From NCBI GenBank assembly GCA_030650275.1, contig JAUSEK010000014.1, forward strand, positions 1-41,934: DNA of 41,934 bases, read 5' to 3'. Positions 35,685-41,934 of this stretch are shown piece by piece. Source of the DNA: Candidatus Omnitrophota bacterium. GTDB taxonomy: Bacteria; Omnitrophota; Gorgyraeia; Zapsychrales; Fredricksoniimonadaceae. Both the position numbers and the translations under genes were made by a program. The notes beneath the pieces are model-generated. The model had not been told where the DNA came from. It saw only the letters and a list, made by a program, of their open reading frames with translations, and did not search any database. Within the stretch, counting starts at the first letter, position 1. Every line of letters starts with the position of its first letter.

Positions 35685-36353
35685 CTATCCCGAGAGCGAA
35701 GAGGCAATTTCTTTTCGCCACTGATTGAAAAATGACAGCAATTCTTCTGCTTTTAAAGGATCAAAAACCAACGATAAATCATAATCTTTCTGCTGATATA
35801 ATTTCAAACGTTCAAACGCTACCCCCAGCCAATACAGATCAAACCCAGGGTCTTTTTGTTTGGCATAATCGACCATCTGGGCCTTGGAGAATTTCCCCAT
35901 TTTGATCAAATAATAAACGTCAATAAAATCCCTCAACGCCGCGCGGCCGAAGAGGGCCAGCAATTTATTAGCGGCAATGTCTGTTAGGCTATGCACATGA
36001 AGACCCGGATAATCGGAAAATTGACACCACGGTTGAAGATAAAAAGGAGCATCCAGTGCCAGGTGAATGACGACCTCATCGCCGGGCAAGGAAACTTTTA
36101 ATTCCGCAAAAGACTTAAATTCCCGGTGTATGGCAACCCCGTATCCATCTGACTTCAAGTCCTTCTCCAACAAACGGCCAAAAGGCATGATAAAATTTTC
36201 TTTGTCCGTAAAAAAATCCAGATCTTCGCTTCTACGGTGCTTTAAATAAAATAATGACAGCGCAGTGCCGCCCGTAAAACAAAAAGGTCCGGCATCTTTA
36301 AGGCCACCGATTTTCTTTAAAATATTATTTTGAAACGGTGTGATGATCTGCAA
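35685..36353 (-). CDS. AbiEii-type nucleotidyltransferase (toxin-like)
   Basis: A member of the nucleotidyltransferase AbiEii/AbiGii toxin family. The polymerase-beta-like core shows FTGGTALSLFYLKHRRSEDL followed by DF, with the GG and paired Asp that bind nucleotide and metal, and later DIAANKLLAL and RDFIDVYYLIK. It could be the toxin of an abortive-infection or toxin-antitoxin pair. Its start overlaps the small upstream gene by 29 bases. It is 23 nt before bioB, which now depends on transcription from this cassette or readthrough. The pair is flanked by copies of the bioB 5' end. Confidence 0.85.
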   Translation of the reverse strand: MQIITPFQNNILKKIGGLKDAGPFCFTGGTALSLFYLKHRRSEDLDFFTDKENFIMPFGRLLEKDLKSDGYGVAIHREFKSFAELKVSLPGDEVVIHLALDAPFYLQPWCQFSDYPGLHVHSLTDIAANKLLALFGRAALRDFIDVYYLIKMGKFSKAQMVDYAKQKDPGFDLYWLGVAFERLKLYQQKDYDLSLVFDPLKAEELLSFFNQWRKEIASSLSG

Positions 36354-36926: not shown

Positions 36927-39900
36927 TTAATTCACGATCCCCAGGAATTCGGGCAGGTTGTTGAGGGGCTGGATGTTGATGATGACCGGCACAAAGCCCG
37001 AGGCGTTTTGCAATTGCTGAAGGATGGCGGGGTCGATGTGAAACTTAATTTGCCCTCCGGAATTACTAGTTTGCAAATATAAATTGGCGGGGGTTAGGTC
37101 GATACCGCCTGTATTACTAACCGTGGCCTTATCATCGCCTAATTGAGCATTGTCAATGTCAGAGTCTTTTAAAAATTTCTTGAATTCTTCCACCATCCCA
37201 TTAATCTTTGTTTCTAAATCATTAGGGGTTCCGCTATTATCCAAATCAAAAACCCTAATATCCTTTCGTTCCCTATATGATTGAACAAGTGATGTTCTAA
37301 CATCCTCACGCTCTACAAGTCTCTCATCAAACCTCTCACCTAAATCTTTTTCTTTGCCCTCTCCCGGCCGATACCCTCTATCGATAAATCTTTTTCTTGC
37401 TGTTTCATTTTCAATATTAACGTTAATTACCCCTTTTATATAAAATCCTTCTTCCTCTAAAACTTTTTCCAGCCCTTTATGTCTTTCAAGAGATATTGGA
37501 CTTAGATCTAAAATAAATCCCTTCGCGTAAAGTGATGGATTTGCTTTTAAAACCTCAAGCAACCTTTTAGATCCTTGACGCTGATCCTTCTCAAGGCCTG
37601 ACAATAGTTCTCCTAAAGAAATATGAGGAATTCCTAATTTATTAAACAACGTAAGACCTACCATACCCTTACCAGAAGCAGGTATACCCATCAACAAGAC
37701 TACCGGAGCCCCTACCGCCATCGCCCGGTCTGTTTCGGGCTTCGGCGCAGACGCCAGGCCGGCGTCCGGGGCCATGGCCTGGTCTCCCTGTCCATGTTTT
37801 TCGGCTAATTGGGCGTTGTCCCTTTTCTCTGTATGACCTCGGGAAAGATCAAAATCTGGCCGCAATTTATATAATTTAGAAATATCGATCCAAAAATTAC
37901 CAAAATATACCTCATTATGATATTTATTAAAATAAGGTCTAAAAGTCTTCATATAAAATTTGATTGCGTCCTCAGTAAAAGCTGTCCATGTCATCTGTTG
38001 TACGCCTTCTTTATGAAGTCCGGCGATGATATGTTTCATGAGCCAGGTGCCCATCCTTAAGTTTGGTTTATTTTGATATTGTCTATCAACGGCAATGGCC
38101 ACAAGCATCGCTTTTCTAGGTTTCTTTGGAATTCTCTCCGCCTCTGCAAAACCTAGTATCTGACCACTGCTGTCTATCGCAAACATAAACCTGTGTCCCT
38201 TACTATTAAGTTGATGCTGGAATTGCTGACGGTCTGTATCAACAAGTTCTTGATCTTTCTCATCATAAGGAGCTATGAGCCTGTTCAGTTCAACCAAACG
38301 ACCCAAAATTTCCTCTTTTTTCTTAGGCTCAGCTGCGGCAAAAAACTCTCGCCCGTCAATAATCTTGGCCCCAGCCGCGATCACTTGATCTGTTTCGTGG
38401 TCCGGTGCAGGATTCTGATTGGTATCCGCCCCCATCGCCCGGTCTTGACGCGGGGTGGTGGCCATGGCAAAATCATTTTCACCTCTAAGCCGCTCGGCCT
38501 CGCCGTAGTAAATAGAATCATATACTTGGCTGTATCCAAAGGCTTCGTCCCTTACCACCAGCGCATATTCATGCGGTGGAATGTTCCATATGTCATGCGA
38601 CGCAGGACTATCCCATCCACCTAGCTTTCTGTCTGAAACAACGCGTGCCTTATTGTTCTTGGCAGAAGTAAGGGTAACACTCCTGACCAATATTTTTTGT
38701 TCCAACTCTTCTTGACGAGTTTCGGTACGCGCAGGAACATCCCACATATCGTAGGCGCCCTTGATAAATAACGTTTGAAAAGACAGGCGGGAAATAAATT
38801 TTTTATACGCGTCAAATGATTCCCGTCTTTCTTTTAAAAACCGGACCAAGGCACGGGCATCTTGGGCAGGCAATATTTTTGACAATCCTTGAGGGACTTG
38901 ATCGCCCAGGGTCAACATTTTTTCCAAGATCACACTGTTTTGATCTATCAATTTCTCTTGTTGAAGGGCCGTCTTTAAATCCTTCCAGTTGTCGACTGAA
39001 AATCCTTCAATATAGGGGGCCAATACCTGTCCCGAGTACACATCCCTTTGAATATACCAAAAGCGTTTTAATACCGGCTTTCCTGTCTTCTCATCGGCAA
39101 CTTCAAACTCCACCACGGCATTTGTTTTCGCCCCATCCGTGATACTGCTAACGTGTTGTTCATTAAGAAAATTGATGTTCCCTTCTTGGTCGAGGTCAAA
39201 ATAGGAAATTTGCCTGATCTTCCCATGCAAAAATGCCATGATCCGTGCGATGGCCAAGGGACCCATGCCGCTGATGCCCGTCTGATCTTTAAGTTGATCC
39301 CAGTCCGAAGGAGAATCATAACGCAGAGAAGTCAATTCTGCCCTGACAATGTTTATCGGTTGTGCGAATAATTCTTTGATGTCCTCCCACGTTCCAAAAC
39401 CTTCCCTTCCCATTGAAACAATGTCCGTCGATCCTCCGACCATGGTCAACGGTGTGGCAGGATCAAAACCTCCGAAAGGACAATAGACAACATCTCCCTT
39501 TAATTCCATCTGTTGACCCCATTCACGAAGCTTCGAAGCATATTTGTCATATACGAATGAACTTCTCAATTTTTCAAGCTGTGCCAATATTTTCTTATCT
39601 GTGCGGCCACGTTCAATGGCCTGGCTGACCGCGGGTATGTTCAATACGTTAAAACCGCCGATAGGCAAGGTCGTCAGGTCGATGTTACCCTGCGCTTGCG
39701 CTATCATCGCGTGGTCTGTTTCGGGATCCGGCGCAGGCGCGTGGCCGGCGTCCGCCGCCATCGCCTCATCCGCCATATGTAAATTAACAAGCGTCCTAAC
39801 GCTTCCTGCTTGAGAATTCTCAAAAAGAACATCTCCCCCGAAAAGACTGCGGGCGTTCAATCTAGCATCCCATAAACCCAATCCAGCCCCACTGACCATT

Positions 39901-41934
39901 TCATCTTCATCAAATGAATCATCAATGGACCTATATTTCGTACTTAGTCCACGAATAAACAACAATCCCTGTATTCCAAATTTACTAACAAATCCATCAA
40001 TTATTTCATTGATCTTTTCTTTTGATCTCCAATCAATTCTCTCAAAATCAATCCTACCATAGGTTGAATGGTCTTCTAAAGACACTTTTAGCGGCCCAGG
40101 ACGACTGACAGCCAGTTCACCTGTCTTTGTATCTCTATACAAACTCCAGCGTTCCCCTGCATTGAACAATCTTTGTCGTAATTCTGTGAAATCAATCCGC
40201 CCCTTATTCTCAATAGAAATATTTATATTCTTTCCAGACAATGAAATTTGAACCTTAATTGGATTTGAATGCGAGGGCGATGCGTCATAAGCATTGATCA
40301 ACAGCTCCCTAAAAACACTTTTCAGTTTTCTAGATTCGTAACGTCCCCGAGATCCTTCTCCGTTTTTCTCATATAATGGAGTATCTTTTATGGTCCCAAC
40401 CCTTACAACCTGATTGACCTCGTCACCCACGTCAACCAGACCTACAATACCCGGAGCACGCTTCGAATCAAGATCACGGATCACTTCCCGTAACAAACTT
40501 CCGACATCCATTGGAAATTTGTTAACGAACTTTTTAACTCCCTTTGCCGTCATCGCCCGGTCTTGGCTTAATTGGGCGTTGTCCCCTTTTGCGCCTGGTA
40601 ACGGCCGCCATATGGTTATTTTACTCGAGCTATAGAGATAGAGCTCTTTGAAGGATGTCTTAGCTGATCTAACAAAATACCTTTCCTTAACAGCCTCCAT
40701 TTCATTTGTAGTGCTATGTGCATTTGTTTCTACTAAATACCCTCTCGCTGAAGTTCGTCTATGCATCGCTTCCCAGAATCTTTCATTATCGGCTAACGTA
40801 CCGCTATATCCTGGATAATTGACATAAATTACGTCGAATATTCTCTTGTAATCAAAAATATTACGAATTAAGAATTTGATCTCTATAACTCTGCCGTTCA
40901 TCCAAGGTGCACTCTTAATATTCTTCTCGAAGGCTATCTGAAGCCGCAGTTCCTTACTTGGAGCTGAAACAATCTTCACGGAAGTTTTGCTTTGATCAAT
41001 AATGGCCTCTTTACGATATTGAAATTGAGCTAATTTTCTTTTCATTTGGCGTTGTAACAATGGCAGGTCTTTGGATCCATAATAACGATATGCTGAAGAA
41101 GCGTTTGGACCGTCATCTTCCCATGGTTTAAAATAAGTTGCTAAATTCATTTCATCCGGATCTAAAAAATCGACATACACCAATTTCGTAAGCTTCGGAA
41201 ACAATTTCGCCAACGGAACAATGCTTTTTAAATCCAGTTCACTGGCAGGATAATAGACCGGCCCTTCAAAATTAGCGAAAAACTTTCCATCCATAATATT
41301 TTTCGGATGGGCCGCCATCGCCCGGTCTGTTACGGGATTCGGCACGAGTTCCAGGCCGGCGTTCGCGGACATGGCCAAATCTGCGGACACATTCATTAAA
41401 TCCTCTGTGTTTAATTGTTTTGCATCAATCGTTGTTACTGTTTGCAAAACCAGTTGGGCAAAATCTGTGGCATTAATACCGCCCGAAAAATACTTCCTTG
41501 GAATGATTTGTTGCGTTATGGGGTCCTGCTCTTCTTTGATGTAGTTGTAGACGCCTTTTTTGAAGGCCTTGAGGTATTGCTGGTAGATGGCTTCAACGTC
41601 GTTAGAAGGGTTTCCCTGGGGTGCTTTCGCATTCAATGCTTGAGAGGTTGGCAATGTGCTTGGGGACACGTTGCGGTCTCCCGCTAACGCGGGAGCTTGC
41701 GCAACATGTCCCCTGGTAGGCATAGGGTTAATGACGCTGTCATGATATTCCGTTCCTTTGATCTTATTCTTATCCGCATAGACCTGAGAGAGGATGCTGT
41801 CCTTGATCTTCTTCTTGTACCAAGTGGCAAGGATAAGGGAGTTGTAGACCTGACGGAGTTGGGCGAAGTTCTTGTTCTCGTTGACTTCCTTGGTCAGGGC
41901 TGGGATTACTATTTCACGGACGATTTGACTGCCT
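36927..41934 (-). CDS. Giant modular protein, 3' part (5' end beyond the window)
   Basis: The frame stays open to the window edge; the ATG at 41723 is internal, because matching sequence continues upstream of it. Modules from N to C terminus: a helical region (41934-41382, YQQYLKAFKKGVYNYIKEE); a methyltransferase-like region (about 41310-40586, DVIYVNYPG, RGYLVETN); a GHKL histidine-kinase-like ATPase (about 40548-39771) with N-box ELLINAYDAS, a degenerate IENKG and GAGLGLWDARL; an unassigned region (about 39699-38447); a GNAT acetyltransferase (about 38373-37824); an adenylate-kinase-like P-loop domain (about 37716-37159, GIPASGKG); and a C-terminal tail (GGIDLTPANLYLQT, VIINIQP). Linkers repeat DRAMA and DNAQL. 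No signal or membrane segment is visible. The role is unknown. Codon use looks more AT-rich than in the operons. Confidence 0.85.
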   Translation of the reverse strand, partial: GSQIVREIVIPALTKEVNENKNFAQLRQVYNSLILATWYKKKIKDSILSQVYADKNKIKGTEYHDSVINPMPTRGHVAQAPALAGDRNVSPSTLPTSQALNAKAPQGNPSNDVEAIYQQYLKAFKKGVYNYIKEEQDPITQQIIPRKYFSGGINATDFAQLVLQTVTTIDAKQLNTEDLMNVSADLAMSANAGLELVPNPVTDRAMAAHPKNIMDGKFFANFEGPVYYPASELDLKSIVPLAKLFPKLTKLVYVDFLDPDEMNLATYFKPWEDDGPNASSAYRYYGSKDLPLLQRQMKRKLAQFQYRKEAIIDQSKTSVKIVSAPSKELRLQIAFEKNIKSAPWMNGRVIEIKFLIRNIFDYKRIFDVIYVNYPGYSGTLADNERFWEAMHRRTSARGYLVETNAHSTTNEMEAVKERYFVRSAKTSFKELYLYSSSKITIWRPLPGAKGDNAQLSQDRAMTAKGVKKFVNKFPMDVGSLLREVIRDLDSKRAPGIVGLVDVGDEVNQVVRVGTIKDTPLYEKNGEGSRGRYESRKLKSVFRELLINAYDASPSHSNPIKVQISLSGKNINISIENKGRIDFTELRQRLFNAGERWSLYRDTKTGELAVSRPGPLKVSLEDHSTYGRIDFERIDWRSKEKINEIIDGFVSKFGIQGLLFIRGLSTKYRSIDDSFDEDEMVSGAGLGLWDARLNARSLFGGDVLFENSQAGSVRTLVNLHMADEAMAADAGHAPAPDPETDHAMIAQAQGNIDLTTLPIGGFNVLNIPAVSQAIERGRTDKKILAQLEKLRSSFVYDKYASKLREWGQQMELKGDVVYCPFGGFDPATPLTMVGGSTDIVSMGREGFGTWEDIKELFAQPINIVRAELTSLRYDSPSDWDQLKDQTGISGMGPLAIARIMAFLHGKIRQISYFDLDQEGNINFLNEQHVSSITDGAKTNAVVEFEVADEKTGKPVLKRFWYIQRDVYSGQVLAPYIEGFSVDNWKDLKTALQQEKLIDQNSVILEKMLTLGDQVPQGLSKILPAQDARALVRFLKERRESFDAYKKFISRLSFQTLFIKGAYDMWDVPARTETRQEELEQKILVRSVTLTSAKNNKARVVSDRKLGGWDSPASHDIWNIPPHEYALVVRDEAFGYSQVYDSIYYGEAERLRGENDFAMATTPRQDRAMGADTNQNPAPDHETDQVIAAGAKIIDGREFFAAAEPKKKEEILGRLVELNRLIAPYDEKDQELVDTDRQQFQHQLNSKGHRFMFAIDSSGQILGFAEAERIPKKPRKAMLVAIAVDRQYQNKPNLRMGTWLMKHIIAGLHKEGVQQMTWTAFTEDAIKFYMKTFRPYFNKYHNEVYFGNFWIDISKLYKLRPDFDLSRGHTEKRDNAQLAEKHGQGDQAMAPDAGLASAPKPETDRAMAVGAPVVLLMGIPASGKGMVGLTLFNKLGIPHISLGELLSGLEKDQRQGSKRLLEVLKANPSLYAKGFILDLSPISLERHKGLEKVLEEEGFYIKGVINVNIENETARKRFIDRGYRPGEGKEKDLGERFDERLVEREDVRTSLVQSYRERKDIRVFDLDNSGTPNDLETKINGMVEEFKKFLKDSDIDNAQLGDDKATVSNTGGIDLTPANLYLQTSNSGGQIKFHIDPAILQQLQNASGFVPVIINIQPLNNLPEFLGIVN
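37139..37158 (-). repeat. DNAQL linker repeat, copy at the C-terminal tail
   Basis: This encodes DIDNAQLGDD between the adenylate-kinase-like domain and the C-terminal tail. It matches the AATTGGGCGTTGTC-type sequence at 37806 and 40570 less exactly. Confidence 0.6.
37717..37783 (-). repeat. DRAMA linker repeat, copy 1
   Basis: This encodes DQAMAPDAGLASAPKPETD plus RAMAVG between the GNAT and adenylate-kinase-like domains. It shares GCCATCGCCCGGTCTGTT with the copy at 41311. Confidence 0.8.
37804..37823 (-). repeat. DNAQL linker repeat
   Basis: This encodes DNAQLAE after the GNAT domain. CTAATTGGGCGTTGTCCC is nearly identical to 40566-40585. Confidence 0.7.
38374..38446 (-). repeat. DRAMA linker repeat, copy 2
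   Basis: This encodes QDRAMGADTNQNPAPDHETD and then QVIAAGA between the unassigned region and the GNAT domain. CGCCCGGTCTTG and TGATCTGTTTCG match other copies. Confidence 0.75.
39700..39770 (-). repeat. DRAMA linker repeat, copy 3
   Basis: This encodes DEAMAADAGHAPAPDPETD and then HAMIA between the GHKL-like ATPase and the unassigned region. Confidence 0.8.
40549..40585 (-). repeat. Short DNAQL-DRAMA linker repeat
   Basis: This encodes DNAQLSQDRAMTAKG between the methyltransferase-like region and the GHKL-like ATPase, joining both linker motifs. Confidence 0.75.
41311..41381 (-). repeat. DRAMA linker repeat, copy 4
   Basis: This encodes DLAMSANAGLELVPNPVTD and then RAMAA between the helical N-terminal region and the methyltransferase-like region. 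Confidence 0.8.
41662..41713. repeat. In-frame REP-like palindrome in the giant gene
   Basis: The outer arms GGGGACACGTTGCG (41662-41675) and CGCAACATGTCCCC (41700-41713) pair with one mismatch. Inside, CTCCCGC-TAAC-GCGGGAG forms a perfect seven-pair hairpin. It encodes RGHVAQAPALAGDRNVSPS and interrupts what looks like continuous helical sequence. It shares GGGGACAC with 3585-3614 and 6562-6631. Confidence 0.75.

Follow-up and report, generated by a model that had tools for sequence, protein, structure and literature searches.

An open frame of enzyme-like modules at a contig end

The window analysed here is the entire contig JAUSEK010000014.1 (C14; 41,934 bp) from the 1.63-Mb genome of a Candidatus Omnitrophota bacterium, and our subject is the gene that runs past its far edge. 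On the minus strand, positions 36927–41933 form a single stop-free frame of 1668 amino acids (aa) whose 5′ end is open, reading from 41933 down to 36930 and closing with a stop codon at 36927–36929. The gene belongs to a large, apparently undescribed bacterial family in which an export signal and a constant head and tail enclose an interior of swapped enzyme-like modules. The terminal 141 bp of the contig recur without any difference at the ends of contigs C4 and C1. This stretch belongs to the constant head, a repeated part of the gene in which the assembler stopped, and the gene is therefore cut at the contig edge.

What remains of the head, its final ∼160 aa, lies at 41454–41933 (minus strand, like every feature of the gene) and reads GSQIVREI...LRQVYNSLILATWYKK...GVYNYIKEE...IPRKYFSGG, with an in-frame insertion of the PTRGHV repeat type. 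A linker with D-L-A-M and D-R-A-M (41310–41402) leads to module 1 (40584–41318), which has no match in a Pfam scan of the window protein and is a class I methyltransferase fold: its AlphaFold model, with a predicted local distance difference test (pLDDT) score of 77, matches S-adenosylmethionine (SAM)-methyltransferase folds in Foldseek (E 1.5e-5, probability 1.0) and in a VIA comparison (Z 10.4, root-mean-square deviation 3.1, 140 aligned). The usual Gly-rich SAM-binding motif I is absent, the window copy and its close relatives having VYYPASELD. Beyond the linker DNAQLSQDRAM (40551–40583), module 2 (39780–40550) is GHKL-like, with a HATPase_c match below the curated Pfam cut-off (E 1e-4); the N-box ELLINAYDA is kept and DxGxG is absent, the G1 box being IENKG. 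A linker with D-E-A-M and D-H-A-M (39699–39779) precedes module 3 (38484–39698; aa 746–1150), a region of ∼400 aa that has no Pfam match and finds relatives only within large open reading frames (ORFs). After a linker with D-F-A-M, D-R-A-M and the variant D-Q-V-I (38373–38474) comes module 4 (37830–38372), GNAT acetyltransferase-like, whose Acetyltransf_1 match (E 6e-7) scores 30.1 bits against a cut-off of 20.7. The last linker, with DNAQL, D-Q-A-M and D-R-A-M (37716–37820), opens onto module 5 (37170–37715), an adenylate-kinase-like P-loop module with an ADK match above the curated Pfam cut-off (E 3e-10) and a score under the NCBIfam adenylate kinase equivalog cut-offs. Its P-loop GIPASGKG fits the adenylate kinase GxPxSGKG, and the NMP-binding DGFPR is replaced, by LDLSPIS here and by FDISSR in the relative L121. 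The constant tail, GGIDLTPANLYLQT...GFVPVIINIQPLNNLPEFLG, occupies 36930–37118.

The frame, the Pfam matches and the AlphaFold and Foldseek comparisons thus bear out the original prediction, which had described methyltransferase-like, GHKL ATPase, GNAT and adenylate-kinase-like modules strung together in one frame exceeding the window. Its reading of an altered IENKG in the ATPase and an intact GIPASGKG also holds, and to these we add the change of DGFPR to LDLSPIS and the missing SAM motif I. Other features had gone unmentioned: the signal peptide and most of the head, both beyond the contig end, the D-x-A-M separators, and the fifth module, at aa 746–1150. Adjoining the gene, at 35685–36353, is a 222-aa frame with a TTG start, which we take to resemble an AbiEii-type nucleotidyltransferase.

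A family with a constant head and tail

A search of the same genome with the window protein gave 29 matches, which resolve into ∼10 paralogues with a common head and tail and differing interiors. Both the tail and the YQQYLKAFKKGVYNYIKEE region, which had been proposed as probes for further members, are common to about ten paralogues, and the genome holds 11 tails in long frames and one in a 61-aa fragment. Members begin with a signal-peptide-like N-terminus and a constant head of ∼350 aa; the interior varies, and a constant tail of ∼60 aa closes the protein. In the paralogues with full heads, which span 1.0–1.9 kaa (thousand aa), the signal-peptide-like segment is followed by WVNLSPYEKDRI, TEMGRDLLAQDYLLKQITASLIYPE, VNTFNKVWIVP, LKVMLEEDYLAL, LRQVYNSLILATWYKK, GVYNYIKEE and IPRKYFSGG. 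The head portion left in the window is ∼80% identical to the head of one paralogue; the tail is 80% identical to that of the paralogue on C4 and matches the tail profile, which includes the window copy itself, with E 3.9e-28.

Across the genome collection the search returned 521 relatives, the best 80 of which come nearly all from assemblies labelled ‘Candidatus Omnitrophota’. The head was found in 133 of 384 Omnitrophota genomes, with a maximum of 83 first-look candidates in one genome, and 80 of the 90 complete ORFs with a full head also carry the tail. The head has no convincing Pfam family or relative among PDB sequences, and comparison of its AlphaFold model (pLDDT 82) with the PDB turned up nothing below E 0.1, with VIA Z values that did not exceed 3.8; for the tail, a PDB search gave only weak, unconvincing matches. 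Head and tail peptides appeared in no paper found by a literature search, most subscription papers and all preprints being outside its coverage.

At hinges of the head, paralogues of the same genome (L034–L043) and the window protein from aa 72 onward carry in-frame peptides that look like translated palindromic repeats, among them PTRGHV..., VIPAKAGIQ, PAHQLAGALSG, ETQHAAS, SSVGDP and VGRAREG. One short paralogue (L004:7923–9065; 381 aa seen) contains two near-identical winged-helix-like repeats (AVKARRDLLLEILNGLAEQGQLTVRELTERLNQRTGYE). A head at 67% identity also occurs on a contig of a Phenylobacterium metagenome-assembled genome (L045), which is probably a mis-binned Omnitrophota contig.

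Interiors exchange modules and are parted by D-x-A-M

Between head and tail little is shared. Among 129 interiors compared there were just 34 significant pairwise matches, and window modules recur in recombined form, which together with the shared ends strongly supports the earlier suggestion of a family with swappable interiors. When the window interior was searched against the 384 genomes, relatives of modules 1, 3 and 5 were recovered, together with one partial match across modules 2–3 (query 366–559); module 4 had no relative at the same threshold. Every relative sits in a large frame (917–19,367 aa) of another Omnitrophota genome, with modules in other orders, and none is a small separate gene. 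Those of module 5 lie both in interiors and in large ORFs elsewhere, and one relative of module 3 (33% identity) is part of a 3970-aa ORF in G286. At 68% and 57% identity, module 1 has counterparts in two ORFs from other families, the first of 18,421 aa (G249) and the second of 19,367 aa (G226), identities that suggest module exchange between lineages. Two giant ORFs with module 1 (L245 and L246; 18–19 kaa) have normal cysteine and SSP-type linkers in place of D-x-A-M, and represent a second polyprotein style in the phylum.

In an unbiased scan of 98,080 interior residues, D-x-A-M was the top gapped triplet, seen 210 times versus ∼11 expected after shuffling, with every other real motif far behind. 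Its density is 2.1 per 1000 aa in interiors versus 0.04 in neighbouring control ORFs. The first occurrence mostly lies within 71 aa of the head and the last one often within 45 aa of the tail, and spacing is bimodal, combining linker doublets of up to 33 aa with module-size gaps. Aromatic residues are scarce in the flanking sequence, and Ala, Thr, Pro and Ser are abundant there. Alignments between interiors begin near D-x-A-M in both partners in five cases, versus 0.3 by chance, the aldolase-like modules of L039 and L194 being one example. Since copies differ in their Asp and Ala codons and in the second residue, conservation of the motif acts on the protein, with a mild bias towards GCG, and for the same reason a pure DNA-level repeat was rejected as its origin. 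We likewise rejected internal translation starts at its Met, as Shine-Dalgarno-like sequences precede 25 of 221 of these codons versus 244 of 2089 other Met codons. The motif is lineage-bound: it occurs 58 times versus 2 expected in G114 and 3 times in 14,574 aa in G302, and is present in families f1 and f4 and nearly absent in the f2 genome examined.

Twin-arginine translocation (Tat)-like signal sequences, which belong at the start of a precursor, were seen inside four interiors (L036, L037, L041 and L092) directly after D-x-A-M, which suggests capture of whole exported genes.

Signal-peptide-like starts and depletion of cysteine

A simple rule finds a hydrophobic segment with a small-x-small site ahead of 97–101 of 110 heads. 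Neighbouring ORFs have 1.15% cysteine and signal-peptide-like controls 0.75%, versus 0.12% in interiors, and 62 of 156 long interiors have no cysteine at all; the window protein has a single one among its 1668 residues. The same loss can be followed within module 1, where two giant ORFs retain cysteines that the window copy has lost: GYCG, HCK, LCA and YCE of G249 or G226 correspond to GYSG, HST, PNA and YRK. As read from the sequences, the signal-peptide-like start and the depletion of cysteine point to export. The original proposal of surface or interaction proteins thus has partial support, while the catalytic residues kept in PGI, PFK, PGK, GAPDH and Fic modules of relatives, described below, speak against a purely adhesive function for at least part of the family.

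The cargo of relatives covers most of glycolysis

Two Pfam surveys of 109 interiors listed 81 and 36 families, including methyltransferases, GHKL ATPases, protein kinases (Ser/Thr kinase), FHA, Fic, GGDEF, glutamate and alanine dehydrogenases, TPR, HEAT, DnaJ, PGI, PGK and PGM; few Pfam families were found in the paralogues of the window's own genome. Glycolysis normally runs solely inside the cell, and the cargo of relatives covers most of it. In G114, one ORF contains UDPGP (UGPase), PFK and PGI, the last covering 482 of 486 profile positions, and a phosphoglucomutase frame, recognised by eye, comes after the stop behind it. At that junction (L238/L195, position ∼3436) a stop is all that parts the PFK-PGI frame from the PGM frame behind it, and the two may be one gene with a frame break. 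A second G114 ORF (2991 aa) has, between head and tail, two GAPDH domains, PGK (379 of 379 positions), enolase and an aldolase-like module, and most of its joints hold DQAM or DKAM. Head–tail ORFs of G302, from another family, contain GAPDH-GAPDH-acyl-CoA dehydrogenase, PGK-HMGL-like, enolase and PPDK segments. The tandem GAPDH pair is thus seen in head–tail ORFs of two families (L194, aa 430–1180, in G114; L226, aa 470–1240, in G302).

Of 54 genomes, 52 have a free PGK and most have a free GAPDH, which makes the cargo PGK and GAPDH second copies. All 20 free GAPDHs examined contain 3–6 cysteines, versus exactly one, the catalytic cysteine of SNASCTTN, in each of the four cargo domains; this pattern is suggestive, short of a formal test, and the four domains are probably not independent. 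Nine substrate-binding or catalytic PGK positions are all intact in L194, L186, L189 and L190, and these four have Ala at the tenth, where TGGGA has its first glycine; the same positions are invariant in 16 free copies. Judged by eye, the PGI and PFK motifs of G114 seem intact, and the Fic motif HPFADGNGR is intact. Taken together with the copies that have lost key residues, considered below, the family is, as far as its motifs tell, a mixture of members with kept and with degenerate active sites, which argues that at least part of it would be enzymatic and more than adhesive. In a PGK tree the cargo copies fall on one side of a branch with 77% of bootstraps and long branches, too weak to claim a single origin. 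As a possible partner we searched for an ATP/ADP translocase (PF03219) and found no match, an uninformative result given that controls gave none either.

Proposed export of multi-enzyme proteins, and rival explanations

We lean towards reading the window gene as a member of an Omnitrophota family of Sec-exported multi-enzyme proteins whose modules work outside the cell's own cytoplasm. The reading builds on the head–interior–tail architecture, the exchange of modules, the purge of cysteine, the linker motif and the catalytic residues conserved in several relatives. A Sec-type signal peptide and the constant ∼350-aa head would start the protein, followed by a row of enzyme-derived modules and the ∼60-aa tail; head and tail would most likely serve export and assembly or anchoring, and the D-x-A-M linkers that part the modules may be a site for a protease or a docking partner. 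The modules would act in the envelope, at the surface or within partner or prey cells and would form a second metabolic and signalling enzyme set alongside the normal free copies. A more specific form is tentative: some Omnitrophota may perform a second glycolysis, largely complete, beyond their own cytoplasm, either in an envelope compartment or within prey or host cells, using exported polyproteins with modules that are joined, and perhaps also cleaved, at D-x-A-M.

Several observations weigh against this reading. NAD, ATP and acetyl-CoA are normally unavailable outside the cell, a difficulty unless the enzymes reach the inside of another cell or of a closed compartment. The signal-peptide call comes from our simple rule, not from a trained predictor, and in the window copy that part of the gene is beyond the contig end. 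Only an aldolase-like module was recognised in the window's genome, the glycolytic cargo being in other families of the same order, and the scarcity of D-x-A-M in G302 means that the motif is not essential to the architecture. The window modules lack DGFPR, SAM motif I and the G1 box and are possibly altered or inactive; among PGK copies L187 has lost one key residue and L188 two, L196 is degenerate, and the L194 enolase lacks the GDEGG loop by eye. Given such degenerate copies, part of the family, maybe including the window modules, possibly has a non-catalytic role. These losses are also what one would expect if the proteins were structural or adhesive, with enzyme folds reused as pseudoenzymes, exported building blocks or binding modules with varied surfaces. 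The phylum's giant ORFs have been proposed as adhesins (PMC10066038), and glycolytic enzymes are known as surface adhesins in other bacteria (PMC4009768). We regard this account as rather unlikely for the family, as the GAPDH copies drop all cysteines but the catalytic one, PGI, PFK, Fic and several PGK copies retain their catalytic motifs, and successive enzymes of one pathway stand side by side.

The difficulty over cofactors would disappear if the cargo were delivered into partner or prey cells as a multi-effector polyprotein, MARTX-like in action and unrelated to MARTX. The cargo includes modules that require cytosolic cofactors (ADK-like, GNAT, PGK, GAPDH) and effector-like families (Fic, Ser/Thr kinase, FHA, TPR, HEAT), and predatory or host-dependent Omnitrophota have been proposed, with molecules passing into prey (PMC10066038; PMC13153191). 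As no translocation device was identified, and the Pfam scan of the window protein showed neither RTX repeats nor a cysteine protease domain, we think delivery distinctly unlikely. A metabolon-like scaffold, with the N-terminal hydrophobic segment merely a membrane anchor and the modules facing the cytoplasm, would also supply cofactors, without export, and would suit the fusion of pathway neighbours. It is improbable in view of the ten-fold depletion of cysteine next to normal neighbouring proteins, the AxA-type cleavage context in most heads, and the presence of second copies next to free enzymes. An artefact of assembly or frame fusion, which the contig end inside a repeat might suggest and by which modules that are separate genes would have been joined, can be set aside: relatives of the modules lie only in large single frames, across many independent assemblies and in other orders, which excludes fusion by assembly error for practical purposes, and head and tail occur together in 80 of 90 complete ORFs.

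Relation to known systems

Giant ORFs (>20 kb) of Omnitrophota were described by Seymour et al. 2023 (PMC10066038), and the family shares with them the phylum, the long single frames, the poor annotation and module 1 (57–68% identity, ORFs of 18–19 kaa). In contrast to these, the window gene is about 5–6 kb long (5.0 kb seen), its head and tail are constant, its linkers carry D-x-A-M and cysteine is nearly absent, whereas two giant ORFs that we sampled have 0.7–1.5% cysteine and SSP-type linkers. Stramenopiles such as Blastocystis have TPI-GAPDH fusions and mitochondrial glycolysis (PMC3527533, PMC6198282), a likeness in that fused glycolytic enzymes are sent to another compartment by a targeting peptide; that case concerns a eukaryotic organelle, whereas the family here is bacterial, with a Sec-type signal, many more enzymes per chain and non-metabolic cargo. 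Moonlighting surface enzymes (PMC4009768) also place glycolytic enzymes outside the cytoplasm, but are ordinary enzymes, unlike the dedicated, cysteine-purged second copies found here, chained behind a signal-peptide-like start. The literature search described above found no paper joining Omnitrophota and polyprotein and none with ‘periplasmic glycolysis’.

MARTX toxins have constant ends with swappable enzyme modules between them, an arrangement also seen in the Omnitrophota family. Unlike MARTX, the window protein has no RTX repeats or cysteine protease domain in Pfam (E up to 1), and the Omnitrophota cargo is mostly metabolic.

Should these proteins prove to be exported and active, genetically encoded enzyme chains would carry central carbon metabolism beyond the bacterial cytoplasm, an arrangement that we know from no bacterium. 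The phylum's giant ORFs, so far poorly understood, would gain testable content, and the finding would bear directly on the question of whether Omnitrophota live by feeding on, or inside, other cells. Even with inactive modules, the family would be a new kind of modular protein system, with up to dozens of head–tail genes per genome, freely exchanged enzyme modules and a short conserved separator.
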